In this document: piece after piece, positions 11,262 to 24,103 of the stretch
Layout of the letters: every line of letters begins with the position of its first letter
How positions within the stretch are numbered: position 1 is the first letter of the stretch
IMG/VR virus record: IMGVR_UViG_3300015164_000036
Coordinates: 1-50,113 of that record
Length of the DNA: 50,113 bases
From: a virus
Reading direction: 5' to 3' (one strand)
Program-made: the position numbers and the translations under genes
Notes under the pieces: model-generated
Database searches by the model: none
Seen by the model: the letters and a program-made list of their open reading frames with translations, nothing else
What the model was told of the DNA's origin: nothing

Positions 11262-11575
11262 GCGCTCCTCCGAAGCCGATCCAACACCAACAAAAATTCA
11301 CGCCTGAACCGTTTCCCGTCCCACGGCTTAGCCGGAAGCGGCTCGAACTCGCGCAGCGGCGCCGCAAGTGTCCCGTTGCTGAAGCGGCGCATGAGATCGT
11401 CCTGCTCTTCTACCGTCTCTGGCAATGGCACTTCGAGCACGCGCGCTACCGCTCGCCGCAACGCAGGAACATCGTCGCAGTCAATGCTCAGACCATGCGC
11501 CGCAAGATCGGCGTGGAGTCTCTTGCGCGCAATCAGGCTCCATGATCCGTTGCCGCTGTGCTTCACGCTCGGCAT
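11258..11575 (-). CDS. Hypothetical phage protein
   Basis: 105 residues, coupled by TAATG to the methyltransferase stop. Leucine- and arginine-rich helices (VPALRRAVARVLEVPLP) and a basic C-terminal helix. No recognised domain. Confidence 0.55.
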   Translation of the reverse strand: MPSVKHSGNGSWSLIARKRLHADLAAHGLSIDCDDVPALRRAVARVLEVPLPETVEEQDDLMRRFSNGTLAAPLREFEPLPAKPWDGKRFRREFLLVLDRLRRSA

Positions 11576-12264
11576 TACGCGGCCTCCAGTTGAAGTTGCT
11601 CGTGAGGTTTGGTCGGTGCAGCGTCATACGGGAATAATGCAGATTGCCTCTGGGCGCGCTCGATACGCTCGCATCCGATTCTGAAATACCCACGCTCACG
11701 CTCGATTCCAATAAATGTTCGTCCCATCTGCACCGCTGCCACGCCTGTGCTGAACGATCCGGAGAATGGATCAATAATCGTTTGCGAATAACCTGCTTGG
11801 TCAATGCACCATTTCATCAAGCGCACTGGTTTTTGTGTCGGATGCTCTGCGCCGTCTAACATCAACTCGACTCTGTTCAGTGTGCAGATACGGAGCGCGC
11901 CATCCATACTTGTCCACGCTAATTCGCCATCCGATTGATTGATGCGCTGTCCCTTGTCCCATAAGAACCATTTCGATGACATTGGCAGCATATCTGCGAA
12001 GTAATTGCCACCCCAGATAATTATTTTGTCTGCACTCTTTCGCAGCAGTGCAAATACTTCCTGCGATGGTCGTATCTCATCCCATCCCATGAATGCATAT
12101 TCCTTTCTACCACCGTGCCAGCCAGTGGTTCGCTTCCTACCATCCATGCCAATCCCATACGGCGGATCAGTCAAACAAAGGTCTACTTTGCCAAGCGTCG
12201 GCAATACTTCCAGCGCATCTCCAAGAATCAGCGTCGCATTCCCAATCGTGACAACTTCCGTCAT
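11575..12264 (-). CDS. DNA methyltransferase, N4/N6 class (beta order)
   Basis: 229 residues from ATG 12264, which overlaps the upstream stop (ATGA); the longer in-frame extension to 12660 lies over two other genes and is rejected. Motif IV CLTDPPYGIGMDG comes first (residues 29-41) and motif I DPFSGSFSTG later, the order of beta-class amino-methyltransferases. It ends with RIERAQRQSALF and the tail PHEQLQLEAA. It would methylate A-N6 or C-N4 using SAM. With no cognate restriction gene alongside, it probably protects this DNA from host enzymes. Confidence 0.85.
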   Translation of the reverse strand: MTEVVTIGNATLILGDALEVLPTLGKVDLCLTDPPYGIGMDGRKRTTGWHGGRKEYAFMGWDEIRPSQEVFALLRKSADKIIIWGGNYFADMLPMSSKWFLWDKGQRINQSDGELAWTSMDGALRICTLNRVELMLDGAEHPTQKPVRLMKWCIDQAGYSQTIIDPFSGSFSTGVAAVQMGRTFIGIERERGYFRIGCERIERAQRQSALFPYDAAPTKPHEQLQLEAA

Positions 12265-12572
12265 GGCCGCGCTCCCCAACTCTTCGGTATCTCGCTCATC
12301 GTCTTTGACCGGCCATAGCCGCGTTCGAACGACATCACGAGCTTCGGCCTCCGCGTATCGAGCATGCGCAGCAGCACCGATTGCTCGTCGTGGCTCAACT
12401 CGGCTCCGTAGCGTCCGCGCATCTTCGCCGATGGCCTTGCGACGCGCGGCTCGAAGGTTGCGAAGCGATGGCGCATCACGGCTTGCGTTACGCTCTGGCG
12501 CTGCTCGACTGCCTTTGAGATAGCGGCGGTGCGGCTGGCGTCGAAGGCTGATACCCAATCTGGAATCCTCAT
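12261..12572 (-). CDS. Hypothetical early phage protein
   Basis: 103 residues from ATG 12572 (ATGA overlap with the replication P-like gene). Basic, with a central helix-turn-helix-like part (ISKAVEQRQSVTQAVMRHRF). The family is not recognised. Position between a replication protein and a methyltransferase suggests a DNA-binding accessory. Confidence 0.55.
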   Translation of the reverse strand: MRIPDWVSAFDASRTAAISKAVEQRQSVTQAVMRHRFATFEPRVARPSAKMRGRYGAELSHDEQSVLLRMLDTRRPKLVMSFERGYGRSKTMSEIPKSWGARP

Positions 12573-13348
12573 TCCACCTCCTCGCACTCGTCTGAGAATG
12601 CCGGAGCGAAGCCGGCTTTGATAGCCTGTTCAGCAACGATTGTCTTTGCCGCAGGCACATCGTCCGGCGTCGTCTCCGCCAGTGCTTGCTTCGCGTATTG
12701 CACCGCCGCGTATGACTGAATCACGCCATCCTTTTCATTTTCAAGAATTTTTTTGATCCACCGACGATGATCTGTTTTCGGTTTCAGGATTCCCGTCGCG
12801 TGGAGCCTCTCAAGACTTGCCGTTGCTTCGGCGCGCGATACCTGCGTCGATCCAGGCTCCGGTAACGCGGCCCGTGGCATCGGTATCTCCGACCATTCGG
12901 TTTGAGCGAAACACTCGGCCAGCGCCCTCTTCCATCGACCGGCGAGCACCGCATAGCCTTGGTTCGCTATGTCGAAAGGGCCGACCTTTTGCGCTGCCCA
13001 GTAGACGGCAGGATGCGACCAAATGCCGGGCCTGCCTTGCCTGCGTTCGGCAATGCCGTTGACGGCTTCGTGGAACGCTGCCTCGCAGTCGAGCGTGGGA
13101 CGGCAGAGCTTCATGAACTCTGGGAGAGTGGGCGGCCAATCGCGCTGCATCAACGCGCCAACTCCGCGCTTTAGTTCGTCACGCGACAGCGTTCCCATTT
13201 CTTCGGCCCACACAGCTTTCACGCTTGCCATGTCGCAATCGCGCCATGCGTCCAAAAACTTCGAGCCGTACATGCTCGACATTTTTCCAAACAGCGATTC
13301 AACCCAGGAGATCGGGACTGGGCGTGATGTCGATAGTTCGTTGCTCAT
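12569..13348 (-). CDS. Lambda gpP-like replication protein (helicase loader)
   Basis: 259 residues. The N-terminal region WVESLFGKMSSMYGSKFLDAW, then VKAVWAEEMGTLSRDELKRGVGAL, then RDWPPTLPEFMKLCRP matches the pattern of phage replication proteins of the lambda P group, which load the host DnaB helicase. The C-terminal half is variable and helical. It follows a DUF1376 protein in the order of an O/P replication module. On a plasmid with its own RepA, this implies a second replication-related module, perhaps vestigial. Identification is by motif recall. Confidence 0.65.
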   Translation of the reverse strand: MSNELSTSRPVPISWVESLFGKMSSMYGSKFLDAWRDCDMASVKAVWAEEMGTLSRDELKRGVGALMQRDWPPTLPEFMKLCRPTLDCEAAFHEAVNGIAERRQGRPGIWSHPAVYWAAQKVGPFDIANQGYAVLAGRWKRALAECFAQTEWSEIPMPRAALPEPGSTQVSRAEATASLERLHATGILKPKTDHRRWIKKILENEKDGVIQSYAAVQYAKQALAETTPDDVPAAKTIVAEQAIKAGFAPAFSDECEEVE

Positions 13349-14832: not shown

Positions 14833-15471
14833 TCATGCCAGCCATCCCACCGTTCGCGCGAACGCCACCATCACCGCGAACTCAGCCTTGTCGATTTCGA
14901 ACAACTCTTCGTCAGGTCTCTCAAGCACCATGGTCTCGTCGCTATAAACCCCGACGCGGAACCGGGACACTTCCTCGCTAATAGGCTCTTCAATTGATTC
15001 TTCCGAGTTCTCGACCACCAACTCCGTCTTGTCCGCTACGGTCTCGCTCACGTCACTCTCCGGTTGTTCCTGCGTGTTTCCGTTGATCGGCTTCTCGGCG
15101 ATCATTCGTTCGATATCCTCGCGTGGCGGCAGCTTCTTAGGCGCATCCGATATTTCTTCCACCATGCGTATGATTTCCGTCGCTTCCTCGATGCGTTCGA
15201 TATCGATCTCATCGACTTCAGCCTCGCTCCGCGCACGCAGCACTTCGGCTGGCGTTATCGAAGGCGGCATATCGGACTCTGTAGGAAGGCGATACATAAA
15301 ATGCGATCCGCTCTCTTTCTTTCCGATAATCTCGCGTGCCTTTTTCAGCAAGTAAAGTTGATCCGCAATCTGCTTGTCGCTACCAGCAAGGCATAGTTTG
15401 GCTATGGCTTTGCGATCCATAGGTTCTGTTGCGGCCTTTAGTGCCGCGAGAATGTCTTGTTTCAAGTTCAA
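14833..15471 (-). CDS. Acidic protein with N-terminal winged helix
   Basis: 212 residues from TTG 15471, coupled as TTGA to the stop of the frame overlapping the cytosine methyltransferase. The N-terminal 65 residues form a winged-helix-like domain (EPMDRKAIAKLCLAGSDKQIADQLYLLKKAREI). The rest is very acidic (EVDEIDIERIEEATEI) and probably disordered, ending in a short conserved-looking segment. It may be a DNA mimic or protein-binding regulator; the family is unknown. Confidence 0.6.
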   Translation of the reverse strand: MNLKQDILAALKAATEPMDRKAIAKLCLAGSDKQIADQLYLLKKAREIIGKKESGSHFMYRLPTESDMPPSITPAEVLRARSEAEVDEIDIERIEEATEIIRMVEEISDAPKKLPPREDIERMIAEKPINGNTQEQPESDVSETVADKTELVVENSEESIEEPISEEVSRFRVGVYSDETMVLERPDEELFEIDKAEFAVMVAFARTVGWLA

Positions 15472-16634
15472 AGATTCTCCGTTAGATTTAACTGCTCTTG
15501 TGTGGCATCAGGCTTTACTGGCCATTCCTGACAGAAGGTTGAATGCTGTTGCAGCCACAACTGGAATTTGCCCATTTCCAGAGGCTCTAATCCTGTCCAC
15601 CCGAAAGGCCACGCCATTAGCCAAAGGTGGAATTCCGGGTTCAACGAGCCTGGCTGATTCGTCATGCCCGACCATGATTTCGCCATCCTCCCAAGGAGAC
15701 CGTTTTCTGGTACGTTCGAGCAATCTCCCGAATCCTTGTGATCTCGTGCAGTTGGCGTTCCCCATGACTTCGCTTGACCGACCAAGCCGTTTCGTGGATT
15801 GCTCGCGTCGAAGTCTCCCCTCTTGTCCGCATCCGCAGACTTCGGCGTTTGCCATGCATTTGCCTGACTTTCCAAACTCACTTGAACAACATCCGCTGGC
15901 TTGTTCACGCGCCCACCGTTCGGCGTGCAAGGCGTCGCCCACATCTGCGCCGCTTGTCCCACAGTCAAGCCGAATCCATTCCCGTTTTTCTTCTCCGATT
16001 TCATCTTTTCGCGCCTCGAAATCGTTATATTCGGTGCGGCTTCGTATTCGTTCGCTGCCTGCGTTGGCCATGATCCAGATGCGTTTACGCTCGTGCGGAG
16101 CACCGCAATCGGCCGCAGATATAACGCCCCATTCCGCATCGAACCCCATCTCGGCCAAGTCTCCGAGAACTCTTCCGAGTCCGCGAGCAGTGAGCATTGG
16201 GCTGTTTTCCACAAACACGCCGTTCGGTCGTACTTGGCCAATGATCCTTGCCATTTCACGCCATAGTCCGCTGTTCTCTCCGTTGATTCCGGCTCCTTTG
16301 CCGGCTGCGGAAATATCGGTGCAAGGGAACCCTCCTGCGACGACATCAACCAATCCGCGCCATGGCGTTCCGTCGAACTCCTTGACATCCGCAAAGATTG
16401 GAAACCACGGAAGACAACCGTCTTTTTGCCGCGCCGATAGGACTTGCTGGCAATAGGAATCGATCTCGACTGCGCATATGCACTGGTGTCCGAGCAGAGT
16501 GTCGGCGAGCAGCCCTCCTCCGGCCCCGGCGAAGAGATGCAATGTTCTAAGTTTTGGCACGACAGGAATCCACTACGTAAATTGTTAATGTATGTTTCGA
16601 GTTCTGCATTAGTGCAATTGACTGGTTCGTTCAA
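15468..16634 (-). CDS. Conserved phage-type protein double-coded with the cytosine methyltransferase
   Basis: 388 residues from TTG 16634, in a different frame of the strand that encodes the C5-methyltransferase. It contains segments I recognise from a phage family usually next to such methyltransferases: LAKYDRTACLWKTAQCSLL, ETWPRWGSMRNGALYL, repeated (W)xTP modules such as WGTPTARDHKDSG, and GSLNPEFHLWLMAWPFGWT. The start is coupled (TTGA) to the upstream 27-residue ORF with a GGAGG site, and the stop is coupled (TTGA) to the next gene, so the operon reads through this frame. Function unknown; it may act as a specificity or accessory subunit for the methyltransferase. Confidence 0.65.
   Translation of the reverse strand: MNEPVNCTNAELETYINNLRSGFLSCQNLEHCISSPGPEEGCSPTLCSDTSAYAQSRSIPIASKSYRRGKKTVVFRGFQSLRMSRSSTERHGADWLMSSQEGSLAPIFPQPAKEPESTERTADYGVKWQGSLAKYDRTACLWKTAQCSLLADSEEFSETWPRWGSMRNGALYLRPIAVLRTSVNASGSWPTQAANEYEAAPNITISRREKMKSEKKNGNGFGLTVGQAAQMWATPCTPNGGRVNKPADVVQVSLESQANAWQTPKSADADKRGDFDASNPRNGLVGQAKSWGTPTARDHKDSGDCSNVPENGLLGRMAKSWSGMTNQPGSLNPEFHLWLMAWPFGWTGLEPLEMGKFQLWLQQHSTFCQEWPVKPDATQEQLNLTENL
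15508..16560 (-). CDS. DNA cytosine-5 methyltransferase (Dcm-like)
   Basis: 350 residues from GTG 16560. The motifs appear in order: I LHLFAGAGGGLL (residues 7-18), IV VVAGGFPCTDIS with the catalytic Pro-Cys, VI GVFVENSPML (canonical ENV is ENS here), VIII ERKRIWIMAN, and near the end ASGNGQIPVVAATAF for IX-X. The target-recognition region in between is cysteine- and arginine-rich and atypical, as expected if constrained by the overlapping frame. It would methylate C5 of cytosine and shield the plasmid from restriction. No cognate endonuclease is adjacent. Confidence 0.85.
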   Translation of the reverse strand: MPKLRTLHLFAGAGGGLLADTLLGHQCICAVEIDSYCQQVLSARQKDGCLPWFPIFADVKEFDGTPWRGLVDVVAGGFPCTDISAAGKGAGINGENSGLWREMARIIGQVRPNGVFVENSPMLTARGLGRVLGDLAEMGFDAEWGVISAADCGAPHERKRIWIMANAGSERIRSRTEYNDFEARKDEIGEEKREWIRLDCGTSGADVGDALHAERWAREQASGCCSSEFGKSGKCMANAEVCGCGQEGRLRREQSTKRLGRSSEVMGNANCTRSQGFGRLLERTRKRSPWEDGEIMVGHDESARLVEPGIPPLANGVAFRVDRIRASGNGQIPVVAATAFNLLSGMASKA

Positions 16635-16714
16635 GCCTTCCTCCACGCCATTTCGTATAAATCATCCGCAGCCGGATAACGGCAATCGGTTGAATGTATT
16701 GCCACGCCGAACAT
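16631..16714 (-). CDS. 27-residue coupled ORF
   Basis: Starts at ATG 16714 and ends in a stop that overlaps the TTG of the next frame (TTGA). The sequence MFGVAIHSTDCRYPAADDLY is soluble, with no recognised motif. Support is from coupling only; it could be a leader peptide. Confidence 0.4.
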   Translation of the reverse strand: MFGVAIHSTDCRYPAADDLYEMAWRKA

Positions 16715-17841: not shown

Positions 17842-18451
17842 ATTCGCCTATCTTCTTTGTTAACATGCCCTTGAGATGTATCAATTGCCGCAGTTCTTGA
17901 GGGAATCTCTGCGCTGTATTTCGCTCGAGCAGCTCGCGCCGAGTGAGCAATTCCAAATTAGATAGTTCGATGCACCGCCTATCGCCGTCTTTGAACACAA
18001 CGACATGACCGTTTGGCACAGGCCCGTGCGCTTCCGTCCACAACTGCACATGAACGCTCACCCAATCTCGGTCTGCTCCGGTATCCGTCAACTTCCGTTG
18101 CAGATGGCCGTCCTTGGTCATGCGCTCGCTGCCGATCGGCTTCCATGCGTGCGACTTGTGACCCGGCTTGAATTGACTGCTGGAATGCCCATTGACGCCC
18201 TTCAATCCTTTATTCCATGGCACAAGTCCCGCCTTGAATCTGTGCTCTACTCCTGCGCTGCGCCGACGCAATATGAATGCATGCGGCCCGGCCATGTACG
18301 CGGCACTCTTCTTCAGGCCGAAGCGGGTAGCTGCTTGATGTAGTTGGCCGACGGTGCGGCCCATTTCGCGGGCAAGCTCTGTCGTGGACGTGTCCGGGTA
18401 CTTGGCGCGGAGTAGCGCGACTTCGGAGGCTGACCAGGGGCGCTTTTTCAC
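17813..18451 (-). CDS. HNH endonuclease with N-terminal SANT/Myb-like helix-turn-helix
   Basis: 212 residues. The N-terminus (PWSASEVALLRAKYPDTSTTELAREMGRTVGQLHQ) is a tri-helical SANT-like DNA-binding unit. The middle carries HVQLWTEAHGPVPNGHVVVFKDGD, then LSNLELLTRRE, the HNH_3 type active site. This domain order is typical of phage homing endonucleases. It sits directly after the broken methyltransferase and overlaps its stop codon. Confidence 0.85.
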   Translation of the reverse strand: MKKRPWSASEVALLRAKYPDTSTTELAREMGRTVGQLHQAATRFGLKKSAAYMAGPHAFILRRRSAGVEHRFKAGLVPWNKGLKGVNGHSSSQFKPGHKSHAWKPIGSERMTKDGHLQRKLTDTGADRDWVSVHVQLWTEAHGPVPNGHVVVFKDGDRRCIELSNLELLTRRELLERNTAQRFPQELRQLIHLKGMLTKKIGEYEKSNDRSA

Positions 18452-18600
18452 GCCGCCTCCGTCAATTCCACAAACAGCGGAGCCGCACCCGTTGTCCTAT
18501 GCCGCGCGATCTCGGCCATTGCCGGGTCTTGCTCGATGCCGACGAAATCGAAGCCTTCCATCATGGCGGCTTTGCCTGTGCTGCCGCTGCCGGCGAATGG
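18448..18600 (-). pseudogene. C-terminal remnant of a DNA methyltransferase
   Basis: The frame reads PFAGSGSTGKAAMMEGFDFVGIE, then an EIARHR helix and a final APLFVELTEAA tail. That is motif I and the C-terminal helix of a beta-class methyltransferase, but without the catalytic DPPY region. The homology stops at 18600, where an oppositely oriented HNH cassette begins. The N-terminal piece lies at 19325-19399. Confidence 0.75.
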
Positions 18601-18603
18601 TGT

Positions 18604-18609
18604 TATACT
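18604..18609 (+). promoter_or_regulatory. Extended -10 promoter for the HNH cassette
   Basis: TGTTATACT matches an extended -10 (TG-N-TATACT). The predicted transcript start falls near 18616, at an in-frame TTG, so the HNH mRNA may be leaderless. The site lies immediately inside the cassette junction. Confidence 0.45.
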
Positions 18610-18615
18610 GGATAC

Positions 18616-19305
18616 TTGCACAGGAGCCGCCTCATAAAAATCGTAACCAAGCAGTGCAAGCAGTGTGGGATCACGTTCACCAAGCGAGTCAACGGAAACC
18701 CGCATACATTCTGCGGGTATGCGTGCGGCGGCGCATGGCATATGGCTAATCGCGTCATGCGCGGCCACGACCTAACAGGCAACACGTATCGCAAAGGATT
18801 TCGCCCTACCAACGCATTTACTAGCGAGATGGTGCGCGGCGAAAACAGTCCGTCATGGAAGCCGGCCGTTGACCTGTCCTGCGAGAAGTGCGGCAAAGTC
18901 TTACAACTGAAGCCTTGGGAAACAAAGCGCAAAGGCAACAGGCGGAGGTTCTGTTCGCGCGAGTGCTTCACCACATCAGGTGCGTTCACAGCAGAGAAGT
19001 CGCCCAACTGGTCAGGTGGCCCGACCACATATCGCGGAAAAGGTTGGCTAAAGACGCGACTATTGGCGGTTGAGCGCGACGGTGGCACCTGCCGAATCTG
19101 CGGGCGCTTCATAGGATCAAGCATCCCTGTTCACCACATTCGGCCGTTTCGGAACTTTGAGTCAGCAGAGAAGGCGAACCATCCGTCGAATCTTGTCTGC
19201 CTTTGCCAGTCATGTCACATACGGCATGAGCGCCTCGATCCCGAGCAATTGCTATGTACTTTTCGCTCTGCTCAACCACAAAAGTACGCGGTAATGACCA
19301 CATAA
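18616..19305 (+). CDS. HNH endonuclease inserted in a methyltransferase gene
   Basis: About 229 residues from TTG 18616; the frame is open back to ATG 18499, but that part is antisense to the methyltransferase remnant. Two N-terminal zinc clusters (QCKQCG...FCGYACG and SCEKCG...FCSREC) precede an HNH domain: CRICGRFIG, VHHIRPFRN, NLVCLCQSCHIRHE. It is the only plus-strand gene in the 17-kb minus operon. It interrupts a methyltransferase whose ends are preserved, the hallmark of a mobile homing endonuclease. It could cut methyltransferase genes lacking the cassette. Confidence 0.85.
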   Translation: MHRSRLIKIVTKQCKQCGITFTKRVNGNPHTFCGYACGGAWHMANRVMRGHDLTGNTYRKGFRPTNAFTSEMVRGENSPSWKPAVDLSCEKCGKVLQLKPWETKRKGNRRRFCSRECFTTSGAFTAEKSPNWSGGPTTYRGKGWLKTRLLAVERDGGTCRICGRFIGSSIPVHHIRPFRNFESAEKANHPSNLVCLCQSCHIRHERLDPEQLLCTFRSAQPQKYAVMTT

Positions 19306-19324: not shown

Positions 19325-19399
19325 GATGGCATCGACTGAATTCTCCGCCATGCCCTTCATAACCTCGACGCAATCACCGGTGATGATTTGAGCTTTCAC
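19325..19399 (-). pseudogene. N-terminal remnant of a DNA methyltransferase
   Basis: MKAQIITGDCVEVMKGMAEN followed by SVDAI is the start of an N4/N6 methyltransferase, where VTDPPY would be expected next. Instead the frame enters sequence antisense to the HNH gene. It is coupled by overlap to the complete methyltransferase upstream. With the remnant at 18448-18600 it defines a replaced central segment. Confidence 0.7.
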
Positions 19400-20163
19400 G
19401 CTACCTCCAGCGCCATCTGCTCATGCGCCTTCATCGGCTCCGGCGGGAATAGCACGGACTGCCGCTGCGCTCGCTCGATTCGTTCGCAAGCCAGTTGGAA
19501 GTAGCGTTCATCGATTTCGATGCCGATGAAGGCGCGACCGAGATTGGAACATGCGACACCAGTGGTTCCAACTCCCATAAACGGATCAAGCACAGACGTA
19601 ACGCCGATTTTCAACAGTTCTTCCATCAGCTTTACCGGCTTTTGGGCGGGGTGCGACACGGTGCCGTTCGTCTCTACGATCCGCTCCATAGCCATGCAGC
19701 CGGCCTGAAGGCGGGGTATGTCGATATGCGTTTTCAACTTGCGCCAATTCAATCCGGTTGCTTTACGAAACGCCCAGCAATATTCCGTCTGGAATTGCGG
19801 AGCCATCGCCGCGCTAGGCGCGGCATTGCGTTGATACCAACTAATCAGAGCCGTTGGTTTGCTAGGTATTGCTGCGCGGAGGTCAGCCACAAAATGAAAT
19901 GAGCAGAACGAAAAAAAAGCACGTTCTGCAAGATTCCATGCTGGCAATACCCACTCCAAATTTGCTCCCCAAGGATCGCCCACGGTGATACTTTCGTTGC
20001 GACGTTTGGCTACTCCACCACCGTCCGGAAAGCGAGTACCGCCTTCCATGTTCATATAAGGCGGGTCTGTAATAACTGCGTCAACCATTCGGAGCGACGG
20101 CATGATCTCAAGGCAATCGCCTAAATAGAGTTCCGCATTGCCGATCCTCACGACTTGGCTCAT
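19396..20163 (-). CDS. DNA methyltransferase, N4/N6 class (beta order)
   Basis: 255 residues. Motif IV AVITDPPYMNM near residues 31-41 and motif I VLDPFMGVGTTG near 190 give the beta-class order; SHPAQKPVKLMEELL is the usual lead-in to motif I. The C-terminus RIERAQRQSVLF with tail AHEQMALEVA is nearly shared with the methyltransferase at 11575. It overlaps the CII-like regulator upstream and the remnant downstream. Likely protective methylation. Confidence 0.85.
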   Translation of the reverse strand: MSQVVRIGNAELYLGDCLEIMPSLRMVDAVITDPPYMNMEGGTRFPDGGGVAKRRNESITVGDPWGANLEWVLPAWNLAERAFFSFCSFHFVADLRAAIPSKPTALISWYQRNAAPSAAMAPQFQTEYCWAFRKATGLNWRKLKTHIDIPRLQAGCMAMERIVETNGTVSHPAQKPVKLMEELLKIGVTSVLDPFMGVGTTGVACSNLGRAFIGIEIDERYFQLACERIERAQRQSVLFPPEPMKAHEQMALEVA

Positions 20164-20640: not shown

Positions 20641-21213
20641 TCATTCCGAATCCCATCCCGCCTTATGCAGACTGCCGCCATACTGCCGATAGATTGCAGC
20701 CCATACCTCTTTGCGCGGAACGAACACGCACTCGCTACGATAGCCACTGCCGCCACTGCGCGGTGTGAACTGCTGGCGGGTCTTGTAGTGCTTGCTCCAT
20801 GCTTGCCATTGCTGTTCGAAAACCTTACATAGCATCGGAAACGGCACTAAACAAAAGCGCTTGGTATCCGCCCATAGCCACAGCACGTAATCGCATTTCT
20901 TCGTGCTGTCGCGCGTCCATCCGACAATTCTTTTTTCCACCACAGACCACGTTTCCAGCGCCAGATCATCTTCGTTCGGATGGTCCGCAGCCCAGTCTTC
21001 TTCGCGCACCTTGGCATCAATCGACAGATGACGTGCGCTATTCATTTCAACCCACCAGTCGATCCCCTGCTTATCATTAGCCACAGCCGCCCTTGTGACG
21101 GATACAGCACCAGGTATCTGATCGAGCAGGATGGAGCGCACGTCGGCAACTGCTGCAACTCCAGAGGACATCGCCATGCGCTCATCAAAGCCATATGCAT
21201 GTTCACGCAGCAT
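20641..21213 (-). CDS. Putative PD-(D/E)XK-fold protein
   Basis: 190 residues. The segment GIDWWVEM followed by LSIDAKVREEDWA offers an Asp and a D-x-K motif as in the restriction-endonuclease-like fold, and a later helix-rich region contains KKCDYVLWLWAD. The start overlaps the ParB/MT-A70 gene end. A nuclease accessory role is inferred from the motif only. Confidence 0.5.
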   Translation of the reverse strand: MLREHAYGFDERMAMSSGVAAVADVRSILLDQIPGAVSVTRAAVANDKQGIDWWVEMNSARHLSIDAKVREEDWAADHPNEDDLALETWSVVEKRIVGWTRDSTKKCDYVLWLWADTKRFCLVPFPMLCKVFEQQWQAWSKHYKTRQQFTPRSGGSGYRSECVFVPRKEVWAAIYRQYGGSLHKAGWDSE

Positions 21214-22417
21214 TTGCTTCGGCGCCCCATGACTGCCATCCGGTACGTTCCGATCGTGCGAACATTTCCAGATATGGACCGGGACTGCACGACTCTACGA
21301 TAGGGTAGAACTCGACCGGCTTGGAACTATGGCCCATTGGCCCGCGCGGCGCCGCAAACCATGTTCCAACATCCTTGCGTCTCAATGGCTGCGATCCCCG
21401 CACACCAAATAACACGTGCTCCGTTGAACCGCGAAAATAGTTACCCATTCCGAAGGATGATTTACACCACGTCAGCGCGACTATGTAGCGAAAGCCCCAC
21501 CGCTCCATCAGGGCAAAGCCTTTTGGCAATGATCGGTTCGTGATCCACAGATAAAGATGGCAATCTATGTCTGCTAGTTTCGCCACCGGCAGATCAAGCA
21601 ACTGCTCGAATGTCATCGTGCCGTAGGTGGGCCGTGCCCTGCCGAGCTGATCTGAATCTCCTTCATCGCCCCAATCCCACGGCGGATCAATTACGATGGT
21701 GGCATAGCGCGCCTCCGTTCTGGCCGGACTCGGCGCGAGCGCAATCAGTTGTCTGTTCTCATCCCTGCGTTGTTCGCGGGTCGCTTCCTTTACCTCGCGC
21801 ATCGCTTGCGTGATGGTCTTGCTTCCGGCCTTTACTTCAGCCGCGAGTTTTGGGGCAGTGGCTTCTATCTTCTTGGCGTCTTGGACGTAGCGAGCGCCGA
21901 CGCCGACTTTTTCTGCTGCTCTTACACGGGCAAATCCTTGATCCGGTTTTCTTGCCGGAATGGTTTTGCGCTCCAAAGGCCAGATAGAAGCGGTTGTTAC
22001 TGGCGCGTCCGTGGGTAGCGGTTCGCTTTCCTGCGGTTCGACTACATTCTGTTCTGGCATTCTTGCCAGAACAGAATGTACAGGCTTGCGTAGTTGCCGT
22101 TCCTTCGCCAGCGCCGCCTCCACTTTCTCGATCTCCAACGCCACAAACGCCAACTGCCCCGCCGATAACTGCCGCCGCTTGAGATTCAGCGACAAGACAA
22201 ATTTCAGCGGGTCATCGCCTTCATATTCTCTGGTTGGACACGTCTTGCCTGCGTCCTGCGCCGCCCGCCATCGGTTGCGGCCATCTAGGATCAAGCCTTC
22301 GTGCAGCGTTATTGGTTCGCGCACGCCGTATTTGCGCACGTCCTCAATCAATTCATCGAACGCTGGCCCGTCTAGTAAGGGGAAGATGTTTGCAAGTGGG
22401 TGGAAGTTGATTTTCAT
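21203..22417 (-). CDS. ParB-like domain fused to MT-A70 adenine methyltransferase
   Basis: 404 residues. Residues 1-110 form a ParB/Srx-like N-terminal domain (VREPITLHEGLILDGRNRWRAA). A linker (113-235) includes a KorB-like helical part (VGVGARYVQDAKKIEATAPKLAAEVKAG). Residues 236-400 are MT-A70: DPPW at 244-247, then LYLWITNRSLPKGFALMERWGFRY and GSTEHVLFGVRG. Such fusions are found in phages and plasmids, with the ParB part probably supplying DNA contact and the catalytic part making N6-methyladenine. A 17-bp perfect inverted repeat lies in the coding linker. Confidence 0.85.
   Translation of the reverse strand: MKINFHPLANIFPLLDGPAFDELIEDVRKYGVREPITLHEGLILDGRNRWRAAQDAGKTCPTREYEGDDPLKFVLSLNLKRRQLSAGQLAFVALEIEKVEAALAKERQLRKPVHSVLARMPEQNVVEPQESEPLPTDAPVTTASIWPLERKTIPARKPDQGFARVRAAEKVGVGARYVQDAKKIEATAPKLAAEVKAGSKTITQAMREVKEATREQRRDENRQLIALAPSPARTEARYATIVIDPPWDWGDEGDSDQLGRARPTYGTMTFEQLLDLPVAKLADIDCHLYLWITNRSLPKGFALMERWGFRYIVALTWCKSSFGMGNYFRGSTEHVLFGVRGSQPLRRKDVGTWFAAPRGPMGHSSKPVEFYPIVESCSPGPYLEMFARSERTGWQSWGAEANAA
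22043..22080. repeat. 17-bp perfect inverted repeat inside the MT-A70 gene
   Basis: Arms TACATTCTGTTCTGGCA and TGCCAGAACAGAATGTA are separated by TTCT. It sits in the interdomain linker (codons 113-125), where insertion is tolerated. The length is far beyond chance for coding DNA and would form a stable hairpin or cruciform. Confidence 0.8.
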
Positions 22418-22999: not shown

Positions 23000-24103
23000 T
23001 TATGAAGAACTTTGACAGTCTGCATTTTGTGGTGAGCGGAAACCATATTTTCCCGCCGTCGCGAGGTATTCCAGGTTCGCGCTGGCATTGCGGTCGGCAT
23101 GATCGGCGTGCCCGCAATGAACGCATTTGAACCTGTCGCCCACGCGACTCCGCCTGTCCCATCTGAGGCAAGACCGGCATGTCTGCGAGGTTTTCCAAGG
23201 GTCTTTCCGTTCCAGCCGAATCCCCTGTTCCTCGCAAGCGCGCTCCAACCTTGCCTCACAGGCTCGATAGAGCCAATGGGACATGCGCCTATTCAACTGC
23301 CGGGAGAACGTCCCCCGTGTTCCATGTTTCACCCGCTTGAGATTCTCTATCGCGAGTGTCTTGATGTTGCCCCAATCGACCGTCTTCACGGCGTGGCCGA
23401 CCATGGAATCGACTTCGGCGAAGCTGTGCTTCTGCCGCCTGCCGAATTGCTGAACGCGGACATAAATGTGTTCGCCGACCTGCTGCCCATCGGAGAACAC
23501 GAAGCCCGCCTTGTAGTTGGAATCCATTCCGACGACGACGCCTTCCGTGCGCAGCGCGGGCCGATCCTTCTCGAACAGGAAGTCGATAAAGACCAGTCCA
23601 TCGCGCAGCCCAAGCCGCACTGTTCGCGATATGGCCCATCCGTGTTGCATCCGATCCAGCATCGGCTGCGTGGCGTGCACTGGCAACGTCATGCGTGGTG
23701 CGCCGGAGCCGATCAGATGTACCGCCCAGTCGAAACCGGCACCACGAAACGGCTCAATCTTGACGAAGTGGTAATACAGCGTCGCGGTGTGACTGCGCAG
23801 GGCGGGCTTATCCTTGCGCCCCTTCTTGTGTTGCGAGCGCACGCACTCCTTGGCTTGCTTTGCGAGCGATTGGGACAACCGCGTGGTGATCCCGAATCGC
23901 TTGACCGCCCGATGGACAGTCGGCAGATCGGCCAGCTTGCCGCCGAAGTCGAGCCGCTGCCAGAACAAATCTACAAAGTATTGCGTGACGGTGCGGCACT
24001 GATAAAGAAAATCCGTGATGACGACAACCTTTCCATGATTGAGGTCGTTCAGGAAAACCCGGCAGGAACGCACCATCTTCTTCTTGTTGCGCTGCGCTGC
24101 CAT
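23000..24103 (-). CDS. tnpB: TnpB RNA-guided nuclease (IS200/IS605 type), intact
   Basis: 367 residues. RuvC-I VVGMDSNYKAGF (Asp194), RuvC-II IKTLAIENLKRV (Glu253), zinc ribbon CRSC (309/312) and CVHC (327/330), and RuvC-III HADRNASANLE (Asp337). All three catalytic acids are present, so it should be an active omegaRNA-guided DNA nuclease. No tnpA is in the window. It interrupts the early operon between the Cro-like gene and the next minus genes; a 17-codon ORF coupled to the Cro-like stop is cut at its left side. TnpB normally helps its element persist by cutting element-free sites. Confidence 0.9.
   Translation of the reverse strand: MAAQRNKKKMVRSCRVFLNDLNHGKVVVITDFLYQCRTVTQYFVDLFWQRLDFGGKLADLPTVHRAVKRFGITTRLSQSLAKQAKECVRSQHKKGRKDKPALRSHTATLYYHFVKIEPFRGAGFDWAVHLIGSGAPRMTLPVHATQPMLDRMQHGWAISRTVRLGLRDGLVFIDFLFEKDRPALRTEGVVVGMDSNYKAGFVFSDGQQVGEHIYVRVQQFGRRQKHSFAEVDSMVGHAVKTVDWGNIKTLAIENLKRVKHGTRGTFSRQLNRRMSHWLYRACEARLERACEEQGIRLERKDPWKTSQTCRSCLRWDRRSRVGDRFKCVHCGHADHADRNASANLEYLATAGKYGFRSPQNADCQSSS

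Follow-up and report, generated by a model that had tools for sequence, protein, structure and literature searches.

The DNA analyzed here is IMG/VR record IMGVR_UViG_3300015164_000036, positions 1 to 50,113, and we refer to this whole stretch of 50,113 nt as the window. Its minus strand carries two long open reading frames in the same DNA (Table 1), with frame A nested completely in frame B, so that 1,053 nt are shared on one strand at an offset of +1. The open stretch of frame B begins upstream of position 16646 and runs to 15468, and the TTG at 16634 is its best start. The TTGA couplings by which B had been proposed to join both neighboring genes are real, in that a small upstream putative ORF ends in a TGA overlapping the TTG of B, and the TGA of B (15470-15468) overlaps the TTG of the downstream gene, for which family searches gave no match. 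An antisense ORF on the plus strand (15374-16456, 360 aa) spans most of the locus; we regard it as a chance ORF, since it has no family match and its frame is stop-free in just 2% of homologues.

Table 1. Features of the overlapping methyltransferase locus in the window
Feature	Position	Strand	Evidence
Frame A, C5-methyltransferase catalytic subunit, 350 aa, GTG start	15508..16560	minus	PF00145 2.5e-32; phrog_363 1.4e-64; AF2/Foldseek
Frame B, proposed recognition/motif-IX subunit, 388 aa, TTG start, +1 of A	15468..16634	minus	phrog_1008 2.2e-19; profile excess over A-preserving shuffles
A motif IV GGFPC, with catalytic Cys	16321..16335	minus	sequence; P and C invariant in alignment A6
A motif VI ENS	16201..16209	minus	sequence; alignment A6
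A motif VIII HERKR	16081..16095	minus	sequence; H, R, R invariant in alignment A6
A motif X GNGQIP, sharing its DNA with the end of B	15562..15579	minus	sequence; AF2 motif X helix, A residues 325-350
GGAGG, candidate ribosome-binding site of B, 5 bases before TTG	16640..16644	minus	sequence
B-only N-terminus NEPVNCTNAELETYINNL...	16561..16634	minus	kept in frame B of L016, L054, L250; A frame has 3 stops
B residues 110-190, LWKTAQCSLL...ETWPRWGSMRNG, dual-coded beneath A motifs IV-VIII	16065..16307	minus	127 bits vs 72 for A-preserving shuffles
Probable target-recognition region with WxTP repeats (B residues 190-320); linker in A	15675..16067	minus	B-like codon positions; in frame in single-chain relatives; A disordered
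B motif-IX-like segment GSLNPEFHLWLMAWPFGWT	15594..15650	minus	58.8 bits vs 7.3 null; matches single-chain enzymes at IX position
Small upstream putative ORF, 27 aa; TGA overlaps TTG of B (TTGA)	16631..16714	minus	sequence
Downstream gene, 212 aa; TTG start overlaps TGA of B (TTGA)	14833..15471	minus	sequence

The identification of A as a C5-methyltransferase in the original prediction is borne out by its PF00145 and phrog_363 matches and by motifs I, IV, VI, VIII and X, which are readable in the sequence as FAGAGG, GGFPC, ENS, HERKR and a C-terminal GNGQIP. Motif IX is absent from the A polypeptide, which therefore does not carry a recognition region and motif IX together on one chain as monomeric members do. 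Using AF2 with input alignments from which rows from the phage collection were excluded, we obtained a model of A with a large domain at pLDDT >93, followed by a disordered stretch at residues 187-324 and then the motif X helix; the small domain is missing from this model, and Foldseek aligned about 168 of its residues with M.HhaI, i.e., the large domain only.

The same phage contains at least four methyltransferase genes and one fragment, all on the minus strand (11575-12660, 15508-16560, 18448-18768, 19396-20163 and 21203-22417), a set that includes a ParB-methyltransferase-like ORF. The fragment, an N6/N4 methyltransferase C-terminus at 18448-18768, is overlapped by an ORF for an HNH/FCS-zinc-finger endonuclease (18499-19305, plus strand) that is possibly a homing endonuclease insertion. 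A TnpB/Cas12f1-like protein (TNB domain, 1.6e-14) is encoded at 23000-24103 on the minus strand.

The segments of B on which the original prediction relied are present (ETWPRWGSMRNG, four WxTP-type repeats and GSLNPEFHLWLMAWPFGWT), and B residues 81-351 match positions 16-279 of the 329-position phrog_1008 model (E 2.2e-19). B has no match in Pfam, NCBIfam, PADLOC or, by profile search, the PDB. Upstream of A, the N-terminus of B, VNCTNAELETYINNL, is conserved in the related loci L016, L054 and L250, although the A frame there has three stops; L250 was the single informative new locus from a pattern scan with this B-only region, the remaining new matches being unrelated sequences. Comparison of the start regions demonstrated that the start codons of A and B lie 4 nt apart in most relatives, and that 54 of 98 relatives have the start context xTGAATGAG, in which the start of A overlaps a frame-B TGA and the ATG of B follows directly. 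Where A begins xTG-Asn-Glu, these residues are encoded by AAT in 46 of 46 genes and by GAG in 45 of 46, whereas elsewhere in the same genes AAC and GAA are commoner, and this codon choice preserves the Met-Ser and the start ATG of B. The window phage is a member of a subgroup with an upstream B start, with B beginning 74 nt before A.

Our cleanest sample for assessing selection on B comprised 54 viral loci retrieved by frame A patterns alone, and in all 54 B is open at +1 throughout the overlap. Reshuffling the synonymous codons of A introduced a mean of 2-8 frame-B stops in most of these loci; in the window the mean was 5.2, and the probability of B staying open was 0.0005. Across 98 non-redundant genes, the +1 frame contains 168 stops where 534 are expected, nearly all of them close to either end of A, with just three within 30-90% of its length. 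This depletion is specific to +1, with no comparable depletion in the remaining alternative frames of these genes. Shuffle tests with profiles built without the sequence under test or its close relatives gave the B of the window a score of 308 bits, compared with 153 +/- 14 for A-preserving shuffles, and across the genes tested the excess was 5.7-13.6 standard deviations. In the reverse test, A also scores above B-preserving shuffles. Common ancestry may inflate the excess among close relatives, but not plausibly for the more distant genes of Klebsiella and Paenibacillus phages, where z = 8-9. On these sequence comparisons, the dual coding is real and both frames are under protein-level selection. 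The original prediction had named in advance stops in one frame among homologues, and constraint in only one frame, as outcomes that would count against it; we found homologues stop-free and both frames selected. Its view that such dual coding is rare does not hold within this enzyme group, where the overlap is common, every one of the relatives retrieved by A alone carrying it.

The constraint on the two frames changes along the gene. Codon-position differences between pairs of relatives, aligned by B, show that beneath motifs I-VIII the free position is the third of A (A1.12, A2.065, A3.24), while between motifs VIII and X it is the third of B (B1.30, B2.29, B3.47), a region where protein identity is also higher for B (.62) than for A (.48). 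In the final ~45 codons, there is no free position in either frame (A1.17, A2.09, A3.175). This switch from an A-like to a B-like substitution pattern after motif VIII indicates that the frames share labour domain by domain. The proposed dual constraint over 1.05 kb thus stands in that both frames are selected, but it is uneven, being strong in both frames at once only across those last codons.

Actinophage relatives show where the C-terminal half of B belongs. Babsiella gp54 (Mycobacteriophage) and Leonard gp5 (Gordonia phage), whose catalytic domain is of the same family as in the window, carry LLPTPxARDxKG-type repeats and a segment like PRLAAAFPEWMMGWPAGW between motifs VIII and X in the frame of A, and these xPTP repeats and the EWMMGWP segment match B. 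The B profile matches them in frame at 71 and 57 bits, respectively, and matches the second half of the tandem-split Kingmustik enzyme (gp78) at 53 bits; HHalign of B against the single-chain actinophage enzymes gave a probability of 98.6% (E 1.2e-15). From these matches, the C-terminal half of B (xPTP repeats plus LNPxWVEWLMGWP) is homologous to the recognition/motif-IX part of single-chain methyltransferases, and the second conserved protein of the original prediction is hence not an unrelated one. The LNPxWVEWLMGWP segment sits at the position of motif IX and aligns in register with RKLTPRECWRLQGFP (P 0.06, not significant), and whole-profile comparison of B with canonical enzymes found no similarity; we equate the segment with motif IX because of its position and the single-chain intermediates. 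In control methyltransferases of T4-like, SPbeta and Thermus phages, the B frame is not open.

Among 74 related actinophage loci, 53 have a single ORF, 14 are split and 2 are nested. Unlike in the window, the recognition region and the catalytic domain share one frame in Babsiella gp54 and Leonard gp5, yet conservation of B residues 110-190 persists at +1, as it does in 18 of 18 single-ORF actinophage enzymes (53.5 vs 13.5 bits). In many single-ORF enzymes, frame B ends with TAG precisely where frame A starts VDLLPTP, and in several the junction resembles an 8-nt duplication, GACCTGTA|GACCTG. A frame change apparently shifted the recognition region into the frame of A while the first part of B stayed. 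A +1 frame with the first half of B and a TAG at the VDLLPTP junction is present in actinophage loci L246 and L259-L314, and in L237 (1914-3761 with 2452-2760), and Babsiella gp55 is annotated in the +1 frame of the methyltransferase.

Survey of about 1,000 sampled bacterial genomes identified B-type matches in 23 of 398 Pseudomonadota, 4 of 299 Bacillota and 8 of 296 Actinomycetota. A overlaps B at +1 in 47 of 47 loci from these genomes (some being the same gene) and in 236 of 236 loci of an earlier set. No standalone B occurs among the 47, nor among the 236, which include loci retrieved by B patterns. The same two-frame arrangement recurs in hundreds of related loci, both phage and bacterial. 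It is conserved among phages that infect Acinetobacter, Paenibacillus, Klebsiella, Burkholderia and Mycobacterium, and a few percent of the sampled bacterial genomes carry it as well. In Paenibacillus phage Shelly (gp55/gp56), a 'g55 internal gene' annotated inside the methyltransferase is frame B, and the record gives it no function. Our literature search did not find the arrangement described for phages.

For M.EcoHK31I, Lee et al. (1995) reportedly described a small subunit encoded in a different frame inside the gene for the large subunit, with both required for activity; the beta polypeptide has about 176 aa and is located inside alpha. The two genes of the window likewise overlap in different frames, whereas here B (388 aa) is the longer one and A is nested in it. 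M.EcoHK31I (YGGCCR) combines motifs I-VIII with motif X in one polypeptide and has motif IX in the second (PMC3404938), a division that the window pair shares, with motif IX placed on B by position and by the single-chain intermediates. On this evidence, the window enzyme would work like EcoHK31I. The two polypeptides of M.AquI (CYCGRG) are divided between motifs VIII and IX (PMC3404938); its small subunit carries both IX and X, whereas the window locus has X on A, and the M.AquI split resembles the tandem-split actinophage form, Kingmustik gp79/gp78.

We therefore weighed what the product of B could be. In the reading that we consider very probable, the locus would encode one two-polypeptide cytosine-C5 DNA methyltransferase with subunits read from overlapping frames. 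A would provide the catalytic large domain (motifs I-VIII), a disordered linker and the motif X helix, and B the small DNA-recognising part, i.e., the WxTP-repeat target-recognition region and the motif-IX-like segment. The two would be translated from a single mRNA, associate and methylate a specific site, and this methylation would probably shield phage DNA against host restriction. What argues for two polypeptides is the openness of B at +1 in the A-retrieved loci, the stop depletion, both shuffle tests and the kept B start, together with the codon-position switch after motif VIII, the match of B to single-chain enzymes between VIII and X, the A model without a small domain, the occurrence of B never without A, and the motif layout of M.EcoHK31I (PMC3404938). 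Counted against it are the weak conservation beyond A of the first ~110 residues of B (the excess is strong at residues 110-375), the low confidence of an AF2 model of B alone (pLDDT 56), the non-significant match of its motif-IX-like segment to canonical motif IX, the absence of similarity between whole B and canonical enzymes, and the persistence of part of B at +1 in single-ORF relatives.

That B is a non-coding open frame, with its openness and similarity imposed by the protein sequence and codon bias of A, is a proposal to which we give almost no credence: the conserved motifs of A do fix part of B, with A-preserving shuffles still scoring about 153 bits, and the synonymous-site slowdown beneath motifs I-VIII is small, but stop depletion limited to +1, the size of the score excess, the kept B start and the B-only N-terminus conserved where A has stops all speak against it, and the B-like codon positions in the recognition region refute it as a full account. 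An unrelated protein, such as a regulator or an anti-restriction factor, overprinted inside the methyltransferase gene would fit the database searches without a match and the invariable embedding of B with A; we think this unlikely, since single-chain methyltransferases contain the C-terminal half of B in frame, exactly at the place expected for the recognition region and motif IX, and this very domain is missing from A. Programmed ribosomal frameshifting that fuses both frames into one polypeptide gains from the actinophage single-chain versions, which show the fused architecture to be viable and in which frame B ends exactly where the frame of A takes up the recognition region. It is nevertheless highly improbable, given that B has its own conserved start, that B residues 110-190 are conserved though upstream of any useful shift, that A remains open past the recognition region and retains motif X, and that classical slippery heptamers are nearly absent at the actinophage junctions.

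Beyond the two-polypeptide methyltransferase itself, we tentatively raise a broader idea, on balance doubtful, that whole-gene dual coding may be the old, standard encoding of a large class of phage methyltransferases that spans phyla, rather than an isolated case such as EcoHK31I. The seemingly single-chain actinophage enzymes, in which a small insertion would have changed the frame and brought the recognition region into A, might then still need the shortened B product, so that one DNA segment would encode two recognition modules in two frames.

This kind of enzyme is already known from one example, EcoHK31I, and the interest here is in the breadth of the arrangement, the domain-wise frame switch and the B fragment persisting in single-chain relatives. 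About 1 kb of widely conserved, same-strand dual coding gives the study of overlapping genes a large natural test case, in which the codon-position switch falls at a domain boundary, with one frame encoding a domain and the other supplying a flexible linker. The arrangement accounts for annotators calling A, B or both, and for B ORFs labelled 'hypothetical' or 'DNA methyltransferase', and it predicts that these enzymes would appear inactive when the annotated frame alone is cloned.
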